This document shows, one piece after another, positions 5,914 through 26,245 of a stretch of DNA of 56,246 nt; positions within the stretch are counted from its first letter, which is position 1, and the number at the start of each line of letters is the position of its first letter. The stretch spans positions 1 to 56,246 of the forward strand of contig RECM01000176.1 of assembly GCA_007694035.1 (NCBI GenBank), given 5' to 3'. Source of the stretch: Balneolaceae bacterium (GTDB lineage: Bacteria; Bacteroidota; Rhodothermia; Balneolales; Cyclonatronaceae). Under the pieces are notes generated by a model that saw nothing but the letters and a program-made list of their open reading frames with translations, made no database searches and was not told the DNA's origin. The position numbers were made by a program, and so were the translations under genes.

Positions 5914-7308
5914 TTATTCCGGTAATTCGTTAAACGGTATGCCCGCCGCACGGTATAGTCTGCCGATATTAACGTTGAAATCGTGAGTTCGTTGTTTGAG
6001 TGCCACTTCGAGTTCAAGATTTTTTTTAACGGCATCTACAAGATTTTTGACATCACCGAAGCCAAGATCGTAGTCGAGCTGCTCCTGACGGAGCCATTCA
6101 TTGCTTATATCATACGCTTTGCCAAGGTTGTCTATTCTTGAACGTGATACCATCACGTTTTTGTATCTCTCGGCAAGATCAAGACGAAGGGCATCTGAAA
6201 CAGCCTCTTTAGTATAGGAGGCCTGCCTGTACTGAATCCTTGACCGTTCCAGCCTGCTTCTCATAATACCGAAGTTGAGGTTTTGCCTGAAACCGAAACC
6301 ATAAACAAGATTGGAGTAATTGGTTCTGTTCTGTATGAACGGATTATCCTGTTTTGGGCGGTTTGGGGTTACAGCGACCGATGCCGAAAGCCCCAGAAAA
6401 AACGAAGGGTAGTTTTGTGCCCTTGCTACTTCAAGACCATATTGAGCCGCATCAACCACCGCGCTGATCTGACGCATTTCAGGCCGGGAAACAAGTGCAC
6501 GTTGTTCATAATATCCGATATCCTCAATTGCGATCTCCAGAACATCGAGGAATTGTTCTTCCGGCAGAAAAACGGTTTGTCTGTCATTATTCAATGCAAG
6601 ATCCCAAACCCTGTTAACTGTTTTCAGATTTTCATTCACTTCATCTGCCATCATTGCGAATTCATATCTGAAAATATTGAATTCATATACATCCTTGTCT
6701 TCGATGCTGTCGTCACCCTCTTCCAGAAGTTTTTCGAGTTCTCTTTCGGCCCGGCGGAAATCGGCATTGGCCCGGTCTACAAGCCTGCTCAGTTCAAGTG
6801 CCAGAAGTTTTGCATAGTAAAGCTCCCATAGCGATGTTTCATATTGTGACATTTCTCCCTGAAAGGCGGCTTCCGCTGCTTTGGCACCCGATTCAGCCGC
6901 TTTAATAGCATTTGATATTGCCCCCCATGTGTATATGGGTTGAATGGCGGTAATTTCGGCCCGTGTAAAGACCGCCCAGTCCTCCCAATCATTTCTCAGG
7001 GTTGGATCCAGGTAGAGCGAGCCGGGCGGGTTGCCCATTGTGCCTTTAACCCCCGGTACCAGGCCATGAGCCGTATTGGCTGAAGCATTAGGCAATATTC
7101 TGCTGGCCCTGGCCTCCTGAATTCGAGTACCCGCTATTTCGACCGTTTGCTGCCTGGCTCTGAGTTGAGTGGACTCCCGAAGCCCCCTGTCAATAAATTC
7201 ATGGATATTCAGCCTGAGGGTATCCTGCGAATTTACCGGAACCAGCCCTAATAATACAAACATGGGTACGATAAAGGCAGCCCGGATATAGTAATTGCGG
7301 ATGTCCAT
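5914..7308 (-). CDS. TolC-family outer-membrane efflux protein
   Basis: This 464-residue protein has an N-terminal hydrophobic signal (IRAAFIVPMFVLLGLVPVNS) and the two-fold repeat of long helices and short beta segments of the TolC/OEP family. Examples are LRESTQLRARQQTVEIAGTRIQEARASRILPN in the first half and SRPEMRQISAVVDAAQYGLEVARAQNYPSFFLG in the second. Such proteins trimerise to form an outer-membrane channel and periplasmic tunnel for RND, ABC or MFS exporters. No inner-membrane pump or adaptor is adjacent; the only coupled gene is the MlaC-like protein, three bases downstream. It begins just after the terminator that follows tRNA-Ser, so it needs its own promoter. Confidence 0.88.
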   Translation of the reverse strand: MDIRNYYIRAAFIVPMFVLLGLVPVNSQDTLRLNIHEFIDRGLRESTQLRARQQTVEIAGTRIQEARASRILPNASANTAHGLVPGVKGTMGNPPGSLYLDPTLRNDWEDWAVFTRAEITAIQPIYTWGAISNAIKAAESGAKAAEAAFQGEMSQYETSLWELYYAKLLALELSRLVDRANADFRRAERELEKLLEEGDDSIEDKDVYEFNIFRYEFAMMADEVNENLKTVNRVWDLALNNDRQTVFLPEEQFLDVLEIAIEDIGYYEQRALVSRPEMRQISAVVDAAQYGLEVARAQNYPSFFLGLSASVAVTPNRPKQDNPFIQNRTNYSNLVYGFGFRQNLNFGIMRSRLERSRIQYRQASYTKEAVSDALRLDLAERYKNVMVSRSRIDNLGKAYDISNEWLRQEQLDYDLGFGDVKNLVDAVKKNLELEVALKQRTHDFNVNIGRLYRAAGIPFNELPE

Positions 7309-7477: not shown

Positions 7478-8374
7478 CTATTGAGATAAAGCTTCAGCAC
7501 CGGATACAATCTCTGAGATTTCCGTAGTAATCGAGGCCTGCCGAGCCTGGTTGTACTCGAGGTTCAATACACGAATAATCTCTTTCGCATTTTCCGTGGC
7601 ATTGTCCATCGCTGCCATCCTTGCACCCTGTTCCGATGCGTTGGATTCAAGGACTGCACGCCACAGCTGAATATTAACGTGTAAAGGAACAATTTGTTCT
7701 AAAATATCAGCTGCAGACGGTTCAAAAATATAATCAGTGCCTTGATCATGGGCCATAGCATGTACAGGTTCTATTCCATAATCGACTTTAGTTACCGGCA
7801 GTAACTGTTCTATAATGCGGTTTTGCGACAGAACAGTTTTAAACTCATTGTAGGCGATGTAAACACCGTCGTACTCACTGTTCATAAACCGGCTGAGTGC
7901 ATCTTTCATTATTTCGGCTGTTGGCTCAAAAGCCAGATCGTCGAAGAAACCGGGATGTCTTTCAATAACGTCATATCCGCGCTTGGTGAAATGTTCATTG
8001 GCCTTTCTTCCGATACATACCAGCGACAGATTCCCGCTATCGAGATATTCTCTGTAGGTTGTTTTGAACTCATCCTCGATGTAGCGAAACAGGTTTGTAT
8101 TGAATCCCCCGCACAGCCCGCGGTCCGATCCTACAATTACAACCATTATTTTGTCGGGTTTTTTCCCGGTTGAAAGTAGCCTGTTGGGTTCTTCGGCACT
8201 CAAAGCCAGGCGGTTCAGAACAGAACGGAGATTATAAGCGTAAGGCCTGGTGGCCATAATCCTTTCCTGGGCTTTTCTTAGCCTTGCCGCAGCCACCATT
8301 TTCATGGCTTTGGTAATCTGCTGAGTGCTTTTGACCGAACCTATCCGGTCTCTGATATCCCGAAGATTAGCCAT
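7478..8374 (-). CDS. atpG: F1 ATP synthase gamma subunit
   Basis: The 298-residue protein is the central rotor shaft of the F1 motor. The N-terminal helix [20 protein letters not shown] then [17 protein letters not shown] and the C-terminal helix [20 protein letters not shown] are the hallmark coiled-coil ends of the family, with the [11 protein letters not shown] motif between them. Length is normal. It is the last protein gene of the atp train, three bases downstream of atpA, and is followed by tRNA-Ser and a terminator. In many bacteria atpD and atpC come next; here they do not, so beta and epsilon must be encoded elsewhere. Confidence 0.97.
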
Positions 8375-18156: not shown

Positions 18157-20313
18157 TTATTGATCCTTGTGAGTTATTTGATAGCTAACCTGAGGATAAA
18201 CAACTAGTAGGCTATTGTTTTCAAACGTTTCAGCAATTTCTCTCGGCATTGGTTCAAATCTTCGAACAAAAGAAATTGTATTTCTTCGTGAAGACATTAA
18301 GACAATTAAGTCATCACTACGATTATCAGATTGAAGCTTTAATATCAAATCTTCCCAGACCGATACCTCATCGAAAGTGATTTTAGCTGATTGTGATATA
18401 CCGGATACATTTAAGTGCGCTTGTATATCCTTAATATGATGCTCGCTGGAAACGATTAATATTTCAACACCTATATCTTCAGCTAATAGCACGATTTTCT
18501 CAAATGCCCTTTCAAATCCATCTTCAGTAGTTGACCCGGGTGGAATACATAAAACGATACGTTTATGTAGCGACAGTTTCGCGCGCAGGTTTGAAACAAT
18601 GAGCAGCTGAGTCGTTTGATGCAAAAGCTGATCCAGTACGGTACCAAAAATCTTCTGGGCGGTCGAAAATTTACGATTCCATCCCATAACGACATCTGTA
18701 ATGCGATTTTCTGTTATTGCCCTTGAAATGCCATTTGCTATGTTTACATCAACATATGTAATGGTTTTTGCACTTGTATTCGTACTTGCGGCAAGTTGAG
18801 TAGCTTCACTGAGAATAATTTCGGCATCTGCGATTTGCTTTTCTACATCACCAGCCTGGTTCACTACTGACAGCGGGTACAGAGTTCCTTCAAAGTCTTT
18901 CTTTAAGATAGTTGCAAGGTTGATTAACTCCGTAATAGCCTCAGGATTAGCCAGTGGCACAAGAATTCTTTCAGTTTTATTTTCCTGCTTAACTGGCGAA
19001 TTCTTTTCTTTCACAGCAATATTTTTACCGAACCTTTCTACTACAATCGGGCCCATGATACATGTTACAAGTATCATCATTATGACTCCGTTCAAGACTT
19101 CATCACCAATAATACCTAGCCCATAACCAACTAATGTTGCGGCAAGTGTAGCTGCAGCTTCTGTTGTAGATAGCCCAAACATCACCCACCCTTCATCACT
19201 TGAGAACTTAAAGTATCTCTGGGTAAATTTAGACGCTATCAGTTTGGTAATAATGTTGGTTCCAAGCATTGCACCCATAACAATCCATGCGGTAATACTG
19301 GATGCGAGTACAGAAATGTCAACCAAAAGCCCAATGTACAGGAGGAAAAAGGGGATAAATAAAGTATTCCCGACAAACTGTATCCGGTTCATTAACGGAC
19401 TGCTTTTGGGTATCAACCGGTTCATAACCAAACCGACAAAAAAGGCTCCGACTATGGGCTCAATACCCATAGCTCTTGCCAAATAGGACAATCCAAAAGC
19501 CAGTAATAGCACGAAAGTAAACTCGAAAGACTCATCTTCTATGTTGCTAAAAAACCAACGGGATATTTTGGGTACTAAACCAATAACAATGAAACTATAT
19601 AGTAAAAGCATCAGCCCCATATTCAGCCAAAAGCCTAAGTCCAAGTCACCCTGATATCCACTGGCGATAACGGCAAGAAGTAGTAGCGCAGCTGTGTCGG
19701 TAATAATTGTTCCGCCTACGGTGGTAATGACAGCTTTATTCTGTGTAAGCCCAAGCTTTGTGATAACCGGGTAGGCCACAAGTGTATGTGATGCAAACAT
19801 ACTCGCAATAAGTAGTGAGGCAAACCAGTCAAAACCCATCCAAAGAAAAAGCGCAGTGCCCAACGTCTGAGGTATTATAAAGGTTACTGCTCCGAAAATG
19901 ATGCTTCGGTCTTTGTGTTTAAAAAACTCTGTAAGGTTAATTTCAAGACCGGCAATGAACATGATATAAAGCAGGCCGATCTGCCCAAGCATTGTTACTG
20001 TACTATCTGCTTCCAGGAAGTTCAGCGAACTCGGTCCAATAACCACACCGATAGCAATTATTCCAATAACACCTGGAAGCCTTAGCTTCGTAAATAGGAT
20101 GGGTGCAATGAGAATAACGGCCAAAATGGTTGAGAATACCAGAATGGGGTCAGAAAATGTTTCATCATTAGCTAAATCGAATAAGCCATCATCTGATGAA
20201 AAAGCCAGTAGTTCCGCGGATAGGGGGAATAGAAACAGAACAACTGTAGAAAGTATGATAAAGACGCAGGCGTAGCTTATACCTGCCCAATTTTTGGGGT
20301 CAAAGAGTTTCAT
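18157..20313 (-). CDS. CPA2-type cation/proton antiporter with tandem UspA-like domains
   Basis: The 718-residue protein has an extra N-terminal helix, then a transporter domain of about twelve helices (about residues 50-435), then a cytosolic part (450-718). In the ion-binding helix the motif is GGTIITDTAALLLLAV, with Thr205-Asp206 where other CPA2 members have Asp-Asp, Asn-Asp or Gln-Asp. The cytosolic part holds two Usp-type folds, beginning at RILVPLANPE and RIVLCIPPGS. It exchanges K+ or Na+ for protons across the inner membrane; the ion cannot be read from sequence. A c-di-AMP riboswitch lies directly upstream, which favours a K+/osmotic role. Confidence 0.9.
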   Translation of the reverse strand: MKLFDPKNWAGISYACVFIILSTVVLFLFPLSAELLAFSSDDGLFDLANDETFSDPILVFSTILAVILIAPILFTKLRLPGVIGIIAIGVVIGPSSLNFLEADSTVTMLGQIGLLYIMFIAGLEINLTEFFKHKDRSIIFGAVTFIIPQTLGTALFLWMGFDWFASLLIASMFASHTLVAYPVITKLGLTQNKAVITTVGGTIITDTAALLLLAVIASGYQGDLDLGFWLNMGLMLLLYSFIVIGLVPKISRWFFSNIEDESFEFTFVLLLAFGLSYLARAMGIEPIVGAFFVGLVMNRLIPKSSPLMNRIQFVGNTLFIPFFLLYIGLLVDISVLASSITAWIVMGAMLGTNIITKLIASKFTQRYFKFSSDEGWVMFGLSTTEAAATLAATLVGYGLGIIGDEVLNGVIMMILVTCIMGPIVVERFGKNIAVKEKNSPVKQENKTERILVPLANPEAITELINLATILKKDFEGTLYPLSVVNQAGDVEKQIADAEIILSEATQLAASTNTSAKTITYVDVNIANGISRAITENRITDVVMGWNRKFSTAQKIFGTVLDQLLHQTTQLLIVSNLRAKLSLHKRIVLCIPPGSTTEDGFERAFEKIVLLAEDIGVEILIVSSEHHIKDIQAHLNVSGISQSAKITFDEVSVWEDLILKLQSDNRSDDLIVLMSSRRNTISFVRRFEPMPREIAETFENNSLLVVYPQVSYQITHKDQ

Positions 20314-20340
20314 AACTTCGCTTTAAGTTCCAATAATACA

Positions 20341-20371
20341 GAAGCTTAAGAGCGAATAAGCTCTTTGCTTC
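20341..20371 (-). terminator. Hairpin between riboswitch and antiporter start, possible expression platform
   Basis: On the minus strand GAAGC-A-AAGAGC pairs with GCTCTT-AA-GCTTC around a TTATTC loop, giving two short helices with a small internal loop. It begins eight bases after the riboswitch 3' boundary and ends about 27 bases before the start codon. The following bases (TGTATTATTGG) are only partly T-rich, so either transcription or translation control is possible. Confidence 0.5.
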
Positions 20372-20378
20372 CCTCAAA

Positions 20379-20500
20379 GCCTGCGAAGTTAGCTGACGGG
20401 TTAGGGCCGAGAGAATATTAGCCCCTTCGGAAATATGTTTTCCGAACTCACCCCACGGTATTTGGGTCCTCCGCTACAGGAATGGGTTCCTGTATTAGGC
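20379..20500 (-). promoter_or_regulatory. c-di-AMP riboswitch (ydaO/yuaA motif)
   Basis: The minus strand upstream of the antiporter carries the conserved blocks of the ydaO/yuaA class in order: GCGGAGGACCCAA, then GGGGTGA, then AGGGGC with its partner GGCCCT, then AACCCGTCAGCTAACTTCG ending GCAGGC. The terminal helix pairs GCCT with AGGC. Two perfect arm hairpins are visible: TACAGGAA/TTCCTGTA and TTCGGAAA/TTTCCGAA. This class binds cyclic di-AMP and usually lowers expression of K+ transport, osmolyte or cell-wall genes. Its place before a cation antiporter fits, although for an exporter the sign of control may be reversed. Confidence 0.92.
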
Positions 20501-20685
20501 TGAGATAATTTGAGTAAATATTCCAAAAAAACCAAAATTTACATTTGATTCTTTTTGAATGTGTACCTTGCATGATCATTATGTACAAGCTAACAATGGA
20601 AATCAGAGTACTTGCTTCACTTGAAGTATTATTTATCATGGACATATATATGTCGATAGTGATGACGCTATTGATTCAAGTTTGA
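20501..20685. other. AT-rich gap upstream of the riboswitch
   Basis: This stretch must contain the promoter for the riboswitch-antiporter transcript. I see no convincing gene, tRNA or repeat in it. Confidence 0.5.
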
Positions 20686-20994
20686 TCAATAATTCAGTTT
20701 CAGCATACTTATTGCTGTGTCCAGGCTACAGAGATTTTTCCTATAGCAATCAATCCAATATATAACCGAACGGCGGCGGTTAAGTACAAATTCATCGCGT
20801 GAGCAGTATAGTCCTGTCACTTCATTGTAAAAGCCTTTGATGTCTTCAAGAATTACATCTATAAGTTCACCCGGGAGTTCCCTCCATCCCATAGCGGCAA
20901 TGAATTCTGACAAGGCACTGTCGTATCGTGGCTGAATGTCTAATTTTTGGAGTTTTGGTGTTTGAATCCGGGTAAGTTTAAGTGCGCTTTGCAT
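20686..20994 (-). CDS. Unknown 102-residue soluble protein between the antiporters
   Basis: The product is a small soluble protein, rich in alpha-helix-forming residues, with no signal peptide, membrane segment or motif that I recognise. Notable segments are LSEFIAAMGWRELPGELIDV and the basic RDEFVLNRRRSVIYWIDCYR, which contains a tryptophan, tyrosines and a cysteine. The start is supported by a GGAGAA Shine-Dalgarno eight bases upstream of the ATG. It lies between two antiporter genes on the same strand, about 115 bases from the end of the second one and upstream of the riboswitch. A link with ion homeostasis is only positional. Confidence 0.6.
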   Translation of the reverse strand: MQSALKLTRIQTPKLQKLDIQPRYDSALSEFIAAMGWRELPGELIDVILEDIKGFYNEVTGLYCSRDEFVLNRRRSVIYWIDCYRKNLCSLDTAISMLKLNY

Positions 20995-21110: not shown

Positions 21111-23135
21111 CTATATACTTTTGTCAGTAGGGTAGATTATTATGAAGCTGCAATTGGTGAATTGTTGAGCCATTTGTCTTGGGAGCTGATCCAGCCCGGG
21201 TCTCCAGGAAAGAGATCCTTCGTGAGCGCTGATGAGGGCAAGCAGGTCATCATCAGTTTTATTATTAGTTAACCAATCCAAAAGATTATCCCACGAATCT
21301 AAAATGGTATATAGAACATCTATTTCGGGTTTAATTTTTTCAATCCGGTTCTCAACAAATTCTTTCCGGTCCCGGGTTACTAAAACCTCGAAATCACCAC
21401 CCAGTTGCTGAGCCATAAGTTTTAACGATCGAATAGCCTCAGTAAACCCCACCTCCAGGGCAGCGAATGGTGGAATAGCAACAACTATCCGGTTCAGCGT
21501 ATTTACCGGATTTTCAATTTTGCAAACCATTACCATTTCATCGATATCGTTGAGCAGGTTGTCGAGAATACTGCCGAACACTTTTTGTTTAGCCGATACC
21601 TGCCCGTTCCACCCGATTATCACATTCGATATTCTTTTTTCATCCACTGCCCTTGAAATACCATTAGATACATTAAGGTCGATTCTGGTTAGCGGTATTA
21701 CGGGAACTTCTGCGGATGCTGCATGAATAATTGCGTGACTGAGTAATTTTTCACTTTCCGCCACCTCGGCACCAATGTCATTACTAACTCCCCGGGTAAC
21801 GGTGAGTGGGTACAATGGCTCATTTGAATTTTTATCTCTGACCAGAAAAGCAATATCCATCAACGCCTGAGAGGTTTCCGGATTTGCAAGAGGAACCAGA
21901 ATTCGCTGGGGTGCCTCAGATGGATCGTAGGGTTTATCTTGTTCGGCCAGAGCCAGCTTTTTTCCGTATTTCATAGTTACAACCGGCGAAACTATGCAGG
22001 TAACCAGAATCATAAGGATGGAACCGTTTAAAACTGCGTCACCAAAATCACCAAAAATACCGTAATCGAACGCAATAAGTACTACGGCCAGTGTAGCGGC
22101 AGCCTGAGCGACACTTAACCCGAACATCGACATCATTTCATTGTAACTGTAATTAAGAGTTTTCTGAGTGAGCAGAGCAGCAAGGAATTTGGCACATATT
22201 GCTACGGTAACCATGAAAATTGCTACAATCCATGCATCCAACCCTGCAACGAAAACACGGATATCCACAATCATTCCAACCGAAAGCAGAAAGAATGGAA
22301 TAAACATCGAGTTACCAACAAAATGGATTCTGTTCATCAGTGTACCGTTTTCCGGAATTAGTCTGTTCAGAGCCAGACCTGCCATAAATGCGCCAATAAT
22401 TGCTTCAACGCCTGCGATTTCTGATAAAAATGAAATGAGGTAGGCTATCGCCAGAACAAATACAAATTCCAGGTAACTCTCTTCACTTACATTCTGAAAA
22501 AACCATCTAGCAATCTTTGGAATTACCATGAAAACAAAGAGTGAGAAAACTGTCAGAGAGATTGCAAGGTTTACCCAAAACGATGTAGTGACATTCCCTT
22601 CGCCCATTGCAAGTACAACAGCAAGTACAAGAAGTGCCGCAGTGTCTGTAATAATGGTACCCCCGATGGCAGTCGTAACTGCCGTATTTTTTGTAATACC
22701 CAGCTTGCTTGCAATTGGAAAGGCCACAAGTGTGTGTGAAGCAAACATACTTGCCAACAAAATGGCCGGCAGCCATTCAAAACCCAGTATATAGACTGTT
22801 AGAACTGCTCCGACGACCTGAGGGATAAAAAATGTGTATGCCCCGAAGACTAAACTATGCCCTTTGTAACGGAAAAAACGTTTCAGGTCGATTTCCAGAC
22901 CCGCCATGAACATCAGATACAACAGCCCAACGGTACCAAGGAGAATGATTGTACTGTCTCTCTCGAGAATTCCTGCCACACTTGGCCCGACCAGGATTCC
23001 CGCAACGATCAGCCCGATGATTCCAGGTATCCTGATTCTGCTGAAGAGAATGGGAACCAATAAGATGATAAGCATCAGGCATGCGAAAATCAGAACCGGG
23101 TCAGAAAAAGGCAGAGTGAAATCAATCTTGTGCAT
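21111..23135 (-). CDS. Second CPA2-type cation/proton antiporter with UspA-like C-terminus
   Basis: The 674-residue protein is a clear paralogue of the riboswitch-controlled antiporter, without its extra N-terminal helix. Shared blocks include GLLYLMFMAGLEIDL, LLASMFASHTLVAFPI and the ion-site helix GGTIITDTAALLVLAV, with Thr163-Asp164. The cytosolic region after about residue 395 repeats the two Usp-like folds (RILVPLANPETSQAL and RIVVAIPPFAALE). It acts in the inner membrane. Its leader (23136-23335) has no riboswitch that I can see, so the two paralogues appear differently regulated. Confidence 0.9.
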   Translation of the reverse strand: MHKIDFTLPFSDPVLIFACLMLIILLVPILFSRIRIPGIIGLIVAGILVGPSVAGILERDSTIILLGTVGLLYLMFMAGLEIDLKRFFRYKGHSLVFGAYTFFIPQVVGAVLTVYILGFEWLPAILLASMFASHTLVAFPIASKLGITKNTAVTTAIGGTIITDTAALLVLAVVLAMGEGNVTTSFWVNLAISLTVFSLFVFMVIPKIARWFFQNVSEESYLEFVFVLAIAYLISFLSEIAGVEAIIGAFMAGLALNRLIPENGTLMNRIHFVGNSMFIPFFLLSVGMIVDIRVFVAGLDAWIVAIFMVTVAICAKFLAALLTQKTLNYSYNEMMSMFGLSVAQAAATLAVVLIAFDYGIFGDFGDAVLNGSILMILVTCIVSPVVTMKYGKKLALAEQDKPYDPSEAPQRILVPLANPETSQALMDIAFLVRDKNSNEPLYPLTVTRGVSNDIGAEVAESEKLLSHAIIHAASAEVPVIPLTRIDLNVSNGISRAVDEKRISNVIIGWNGQVSAKQKVFGSILDNLLNDIDEMVMVCKIENPVNTLNRIVVAIPPFAALEVGFTEAIRSLKLMAQQLGGDFEVLVTRDRKEFVENRIEKIKPEIDVLYTILDSWDNLLDWLTNNKTDDDLLALISAHEGSLSWRPGLDQLPRQMAQQFTNCSFIIIYPTDKSI

Positions 23136-25780: not shown

Positions 25781-26245
25781 TTACTGCATCCCTGATTCTT
25801 CCTTAGAAAATATATCCAGGATTTCTTCAGCCGACCCGGCTTGCTGTACTGCATGGCGAAACTGATCATTGTTCATGAGCCGGGAAATTCTGCTGAGCAA
25901 TTTGATGTGGGTGCTGCTCTGGCCGTCGGGACCAATCAGCAGAAAAACCAGATCTACATCCTGGTCGTCGATTGAGCCATATGCGAGTGGTTTTTTCAGG
26001 CGGGCAAAGACGGCGTAATTCCGTTCAATGCCATTTATTTTTGCATGTGGTATGCCCAGGCCCTTGCCAACTCCGGTAGACATGATCGACTCTCGTTCCA
26101 TCACTGCCCTTGTTGCACGCATTGTGTTCTCTTTTCCGAGCTGCCCGGACAGTGATTCGATCATTGCCTTGACAAGTTGTTCTTTTGATTCTGCTTCAAG
26201 ATTGTGGTGCACATTTCCCGAATTCAGAAGATCCGAAACTTTCAT
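25781..26245 (-). CDS. ptsN: PTS EIIA domain protein, PtsN-like (EIIA-Ntr)
   Basis: This 154-residue single-domain protein has the fructose/mannitol-type EIIA fold with the phospho-accepting His67 in GKGLGIPHAKI. Other family segments are RESIMSTGVG and DLVFLLIGPDGQSSTHIKLL. No EIIB or EIIC sugar permease accompanies it, so it is probably the regulatory EIIA-Ntr type, which in other bacteria controls K+ transport and sigma-54 related regulation. It lies about 170 bases upstream of the sigma-54 response regulator on the same strand and is divergent from ccmB. Confidence 0.85.
   Translation of the reverse strand: MKVSDLLNSGNVHHNLEAESKEQLVKAMIESLSGQLGKENTMRATRAVMERESIMSTGVGKGLGIPHAKINGIERNYAVFARLKKPLAYGSIDDQDVDLVFLLIGPDGQSSTHIKLLSRISRLMNNDQFRHAVQQAGSAEEILDIFSKEESGMQ

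Follow-up and report, generated by a model that had tools for sequence, protein, structure and literature searches.

The window, that is, the whole stretch of 56,246 nt analysed here, comes from a Balneolaceae bacterium and carries on its minus strand two antiporter genes with a riboswitch between them. The gene downstream of the switch (18157..20313, minus) encodes a CPA2-type cation/proton antiporter of 718 aa with a C-terminal Usp domain (PF00999, Na_H_Exchanger, 8.8e-56; PF00582, Usp, 2.7e-07), the regulated, accessory paralogue of the pair. Its start codon, at 20313, lies 65 nt past position 20379 on the same strand as the aptamer, so that the switch does lead a CPA2 antiporter gene, as the preliminary description of this DNA had claimed. 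Just upstream of the switch lies the gene of a second CPA2-Usp antiporter (21111..23135, minus), 43% identical to the first and, by its Pfam domains and its place in the tree discussed below, of the housekeeping type; no second RF00379 match is found, and no riboswitch stands ahead of this gene. Near the paralogous antiporters a free-standing EIIA_2 protein is encoded at 25781-26245 (minus). The housekeeping antiporter type of relatives measures about 830-890 aa and ends, where scanned, in a C-terminal EIIA_2 domain, so in the window EIIA_2 appears to have been split off.

The aptamer of the c-di-AMP (ydaO/yuaA) riboswitch is complete and occupies 20363..20511 (minus). A cmscan search against all Rfam families matched the full RF00379 model (1-134) there with 87.2 bits (gathering score 38 bits) and an E-value of 4.9e-19, and the element is single-copy in the 4.0 Mb, 279-contig draft genome. 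The ydaO/yuaA aptamer recognized earlier at 20379-20500 falls inside this match, and the covariance-model score bears out that identification. In an alignment of 17 homologues the helices covary: across 42 aptamer pairs, including a pseudoknot between a loop and the 3' tail, 90.4% of cells are paired, vs 35-51% for slid structures, 23 of the 42 pairs show double changes, and the covariation score is 0.354, vs 0.158 after shuffling. The pseudoknot, labelled P7 in this analysis, joins the loop strand UUCUCUC (20409..20415, minus) to the tail strand GAGGGAA (20369..20375, minus). In the same 17 homologues this helix is paired in 91% of cells, with both-side changes in five of its seven pairs, and its sequence varies from UUCUCUC/GAGGGAA in the window to CUAUCA/UGAUAG in the group of genus g17 and CUUCCA/UGGAAG in G264, a genome from outside the Balneolales. 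Its sequence marks the element as a true c-di-AMP riboswitch aptamer of a class already known, for which ligand binding is predicted.

The host belongs to the Balneolales (Bacteroidota), in keeping with the Bacteroidota-like origin suggested earlier, and encodes c-di-AMP enzymes. The preliminary description had proposed looking for a DAC-domain gene in the same genome; there is one such protein (DAC domain, 148.8 bits), classified as CdaA by NCBIfam (TIGR00159, 234 bits vs a cut-off of 188.8), and its gene lies directly 3' of a gene read from the sequence as folP. The genome also encodes a protein with the 7TM-7TMR_HD domain known from the phosphodiesterase PgpH, and DAC is present in all 84 good-quality Balneolales genomes. 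The host is thus predicted from its CdaA/DAC domain to make c-di-AMP. A second DAC protein of about 400-550 aa occurs in about ten Balneolales genomes; in G058 (contig C118, L013:5127-6623 minus) a second diadenylate cyclase is fused to a YbbR (CdaR-like) domain, and its gene lies about 1.6 kb upstream of a riboswitch and two CPA2 antiporters. Given these enzymes and the intact conserved core and helices of the window copy, it is hardly credible that the aptamer is decayed or has shifted to another ligand, outside c-di-AMP control, even if the switch is absent from most relatives and a related copy in G028 is visibly decayed, with the 3' strand of P1 and the pseudoknot tail missing.

Scans for RF00379, run with stricter filters that scored part of the candidates, gave matches in 15 of 129 Balneolales genomes, in 15 of 245 genomes of the class and in 12 of 396 sampled genomes of the phylum, only one of these 12 lying outside the Balneolales. 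Rescanning of 18 hit-less relatives at E <= 0.1, with nearly all candidates scored, revealed no weak RF00379 copies, and two named Balneolales relatives taken from a protein scan are both without an RF00379 match. The phyla listed for c-di-AMP riboswitches in PMC6488665 do not include this lineage.

Within the Balneolales a CPA2-Usp antiporter nearly always follows the switch, either at once or with one small gene in between, and the survey of related antiporter leaders that had been called for found a CPA2 antiporter downstream at every complete Balneolales locus read. In nine genomes (G000, G005, G008, G017, G020, G058, G103, G111, and G113) the switch stands directly before the antiporter gene, and in three members of genus g17 (G056, G070, G072) the order is switch, small TIM-barrel-like gene, CPA2 antiporter. 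A protein search of 39 genomes found a second close antiporter paralogue in six (G000, G005, G006, G008, G017, G020), all six with an RF00379 match; in G006 the switch and the antiporter lie at contig ends, which makes their link unreadable. In a tree of 40 antiporters an accessory clade of switch-linked copies received support of 97/85 and includes the window's regulated antiporter, which is long-branched and unsure in its placement. The switch-linked copy of G058 is a divergent, long-branched extra copy, and the switch-linked antiporters of g17 form a separate group within the housekeeping type. In the window's clade, then, the switch travels with the accessory paralogue, and the housekeeping paralogue is without it, which poses a clean question about the role of the accessory antiporter.

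Several neighbouring arrangements are also worth recording. The small gene of g17 (L019:5778-6440 plus, L034:7153-7815 minus, L033:3622-4284 plus) encodes a TIM-barrel-like protein of about 220 aa without a Pfam match; since it is the first gene after the riboswitch, it may be an addition to the c-di-AMP regulon. It is deleted in two g17 members, G028 and G075. In G028 (L020:9758-9892 minus and following) the deletion also took the aptamer parts named above, and the decayed riboswitch is now fused to the gene remnant; G075 (L035) suffered a separate deletion that spared the aptamer. G111 (L032) has two c-di-AMP riboswitches on one strand about 2 kb apart (7884-8024 minus and 5929-6077 minus), which differ in leader type, one standing before a TIM-barrel-type start and the other before the accessory antiporter. 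Beside the riboswitch-controlled antiporter of g17 (L019:9248-11347 plus) lies a gene for an APC-type permease that ends in EIIA_2 and TrkA_C (RCK_C) domains; as RCK_C is among the folds known to act as c-di-AMP receptors, control of this permease by c-di-AMP at the protein level is possible. In G017 a TPP riboswitch (L014:7428-7523 plus) follows shortly after the riboswitch-linked antiporter and precedes a gene resembling a TonB-dependent receptor.

Between the aptamer and the regulated antiporter gene no intrinsic terminator was recognized: the region 20250-20690 has no stem followed by a U-tract, and none is visible by eye in the 65-nt leader, which is not of the terminator type of ydaO leaders. 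It does contain a hairpin, H1 (20341..20371, minus; GAAGC.AAGAGC / GCUCUU..GCUUC), with a folding energy of -15.1 kcal/mol and a z-score of -3.6, and each of the 13 other Balneolales leaders examined has a GAAG...CUUC-type hairpin at the same position. The hairpin singled out in the preliminary description as a possible switch is thus real and likely to have that function, as a proposed anti-sequestor. Since the final three bases of the pseudoknot tail (20369-20371) double, by sequence, as the base of H1, H1 and the pseudoknot compete, although the overlap amounts to only 3 nt. The proposed start-codon sequestor (20317..20356, minus) pairs 20341-20356 (UUCGCUCUUAAGCUUC) with 20317-20330 (GAACUUAAAGCGAA) and is exclusive of H1; the fold of 20311-20361 reaches -12.9 kcal/mol with a z-score of -2.9. 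A shorter alternative, AGCUUC/GAAGUU (20341-20346 with 20314-20319), would occlude the same site. The alternative partner of the H1 3' strand ends 1-4 nt before the AUG, and the leader is predicted to fold into the sequestor when the tail is absent and into H1 when the tail is included.

Start-site accessibility was taken as the average probability of being unpaired over 16 bases, the last three of them the AUG, in folds of the 5' UTR plus 9 nt, with pseudoknot energies left out and the tail either free or held (masked) as in the bound state. It falls in the window from 0.54 with the tail free to 0.28 with the tail held, and shifts downwards likewise in all five short-leader relatives (G111a, G072, G056, G070, G075). 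Among 300 dinucleotide shuffles of each leader the observed drop was reached by 5, 4, 2, 0, 15, and 14 (window, G111a, G072, G056, G070, and G075, respectively), six tests that are not independent, as the five relatives are mutually related. The helix that covers the start persists in these relatives although its sequence differs, as in GUGCGUU/AACGCAC-AUG and GUACGUU/AACGUAC-AUG. The window leader is without a close homologue, and its sequestor therefore rests on folding; for the duplex taken by itself, 110 of 2000 shuffles do as well, so that it is not significant.

As an engaged tail makes the start less accessible, the predicted sign is the usual one, in which the ligand turns expression off. 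This runs against the earlier suggestion that the sign might be inverted: the competition between hairpin and tail, with the start sequestered when the tail is engaged, favours the OFF direction. The reverse arrangement, an ON switch whose bound aptamer frees the start codon, so that high K+ and c-di-AMP raise the synthesis of a K+ exporter, seems unlikely to us. Its attraction lies in the target being an antiporter, since exporters of the CpaA type are activated by c-di-AMP at the protein level (PMC6488665), and were it true, one messenger would close import and open export through RNA. It may also draw on the fold with 45 nt of coding sequence added, in which some pairing of the start region is predicted with or without ligand and the AUG triplet itself comes out slightly more accessible when the aptamer is bound, so that no clean OFF results for it. 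Against it stand the lowered start accessibility predicted with the tail engaged in all six short leaders, that of the window and those of its five relatives, the description of c-di-AMP riboswitches as off-switches (PMC9960051, PMC5575661), and the nature of the nearest solved relative of the target.

That relative is the Na+/H+ antiporter NapA (chain 4bwz, E 6e-17), followed by KefC (E 1e-5); the exporter role suggested earlier for the target is unproven. In the alignment to 4bwz the Asp-Asp pair of the ion-binding helix of NapA reads T-D in the regulated antiporter; by this residue pattern the protein would not be placed with the NapA-like electrogenic Na+/H+ antiporters. The CPA2 subfamily model TIGR00932 likewise scores it below the cut-off (121 bits vs 238). 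Were the antiporter a K+ exporter, the OFF sign would be difficult to explain and the ON alternative would gain strength; on an antiporter of the Na+/H+ type, an OFF switch would give derepression under salt or low-K+ stress with no inversion of sign needed. Binding of c-di-AMP by the Usp domain was considered as well but is not favoured, the KdpD-like match of the Usp part being weak (E 0.004) and no KdpD-type motif being seen by eye.

Taken together, comparison and thermodynamics suggest that the element is probably a translational OFF switch, working by exchange between H1 and the sequestor, with synthesis of the antiporter at low c-di-AMP. In the ligand-free RNA, the 3' tail of the aptamer would form H1, locking away the strand able to cover the start codon, and the antiporter would be translated. 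With c-di-AMP bound, the loop/tail pseudoknot would take the tail, H1 would lose its base, and the freed 3' strand of H1 could pair immediately ahead of the AUG, shutting translation off. A fall in c-di-AMP would then derepress the antiporter, and the most plausible setting for this is hyperosmotic stress, high Na+ or low K+. K+ limitation lowers c-di-AMP in Bacillus (PMC6488665), and high c-di-AMP has been taken as a signal that there is no osmotic distress (PMC9337991); the physiological trigger, like the transported ion, is something that we infer.

The long-leader relatives (150-195 nt) behave differently under the same model. H1 is present in all eight and an exclusive alternative hairpin, H2, in seven of them. 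The H1 and H2 states differ little in energy, and when H1 forms, the 3' strand of H2 finds a partner in a conserved CUCUGA close to the start. Predicted start accessibility barely changes in these leaders, with one exception, so the start-codon model may not apply to them. The conservation of H1 and H2 far from the start codon, with so little effect on its predicted accessibility, is one of two observations that would fit c-di-AMP acting as an OFF signal on transcription through Rho, or on RNA decay, instead of through pairing at the start codon; the other is the lack of an intrinsic terminator in the window. We hold this to be rather improbable, as the alternative pairing ends at the AUG in the short leaders, that of the window included, and as intrinsic terminators are in use in another family of related Bacteroidota, which makes the lost terminator look replaced and not simply absent. 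The translational OFF switch remains the preferred reading for the short leaders, and the short-leader set offers a test bed for such a c-di-AMP switch by compensatory mutation.

The family just mentioned, that of G264 (L036, L069-L071), shares with the window the aptamer and the phylum; there, RF00379 precedes homologues of the K+ importer KimA (6s3k, E 4e-57), and several leaders have U-tract terminators and Shine-Dalgarno-like sites. In L072, a further member of the family, a different ORF follows the switch. The ydaO/yuaA elements studied in Bacillus, in the leaders of kimA, ktrAB, and kdpFABC, likewise have RF00379, a monovalent-cation transporter downstream and, as predicted here, the OFF sign, but they combine an intrinsic terminator with K+ importers (PMC6488665, PMC9960051), whereas the window has a CPA2 antiporter and no terminator. 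The importance of the Balneolales system lies in this tie of a c-di-AMP switch to CPA2-Usp cation/proton antiporters instead of K+ importers, a target unusual for the class. An efflux target is nevertheless not unprecedented, since in the cyanobacterium Synechocystis the same class stands before slr0753, an efflux-type transporter gene, in that case for a putative chloride efflux transporter (PMC10117731). Na+ (DUF1646) riboswitches before napA-type antiporters resemble the window in joining an RNA switch to a NapA-like antiporter and salt physiology, but they have another aptamer and ligand and are ON switches (PMC9337991). The lineage, the antiporter target and the likely translational off-switch are, in our view, under-described, with prior mention of antiporters or Bacteroidota possible in the surveys of gene associations by Block 2010 and Nelson 2013. 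A translational c-di-AMP platform has so far been suggested for one gene, nlpC of C. glutamicum, whose riboswitch represses translation and for which a similar alternative pairing has been proposed (PMC9960051). The two systems would share the lack of a terminator, translational OFF control (predicted for the window), and a freed strand covering the ribosome-binding region; they differ in that nlpC is an actinobacterial cell-wall peptidase gene in which the proposed pairing is to the Shine-Dalgarno sequence GGAG (PMC9960051), whereas in the window the predicted pairing lies directly before the AUG.
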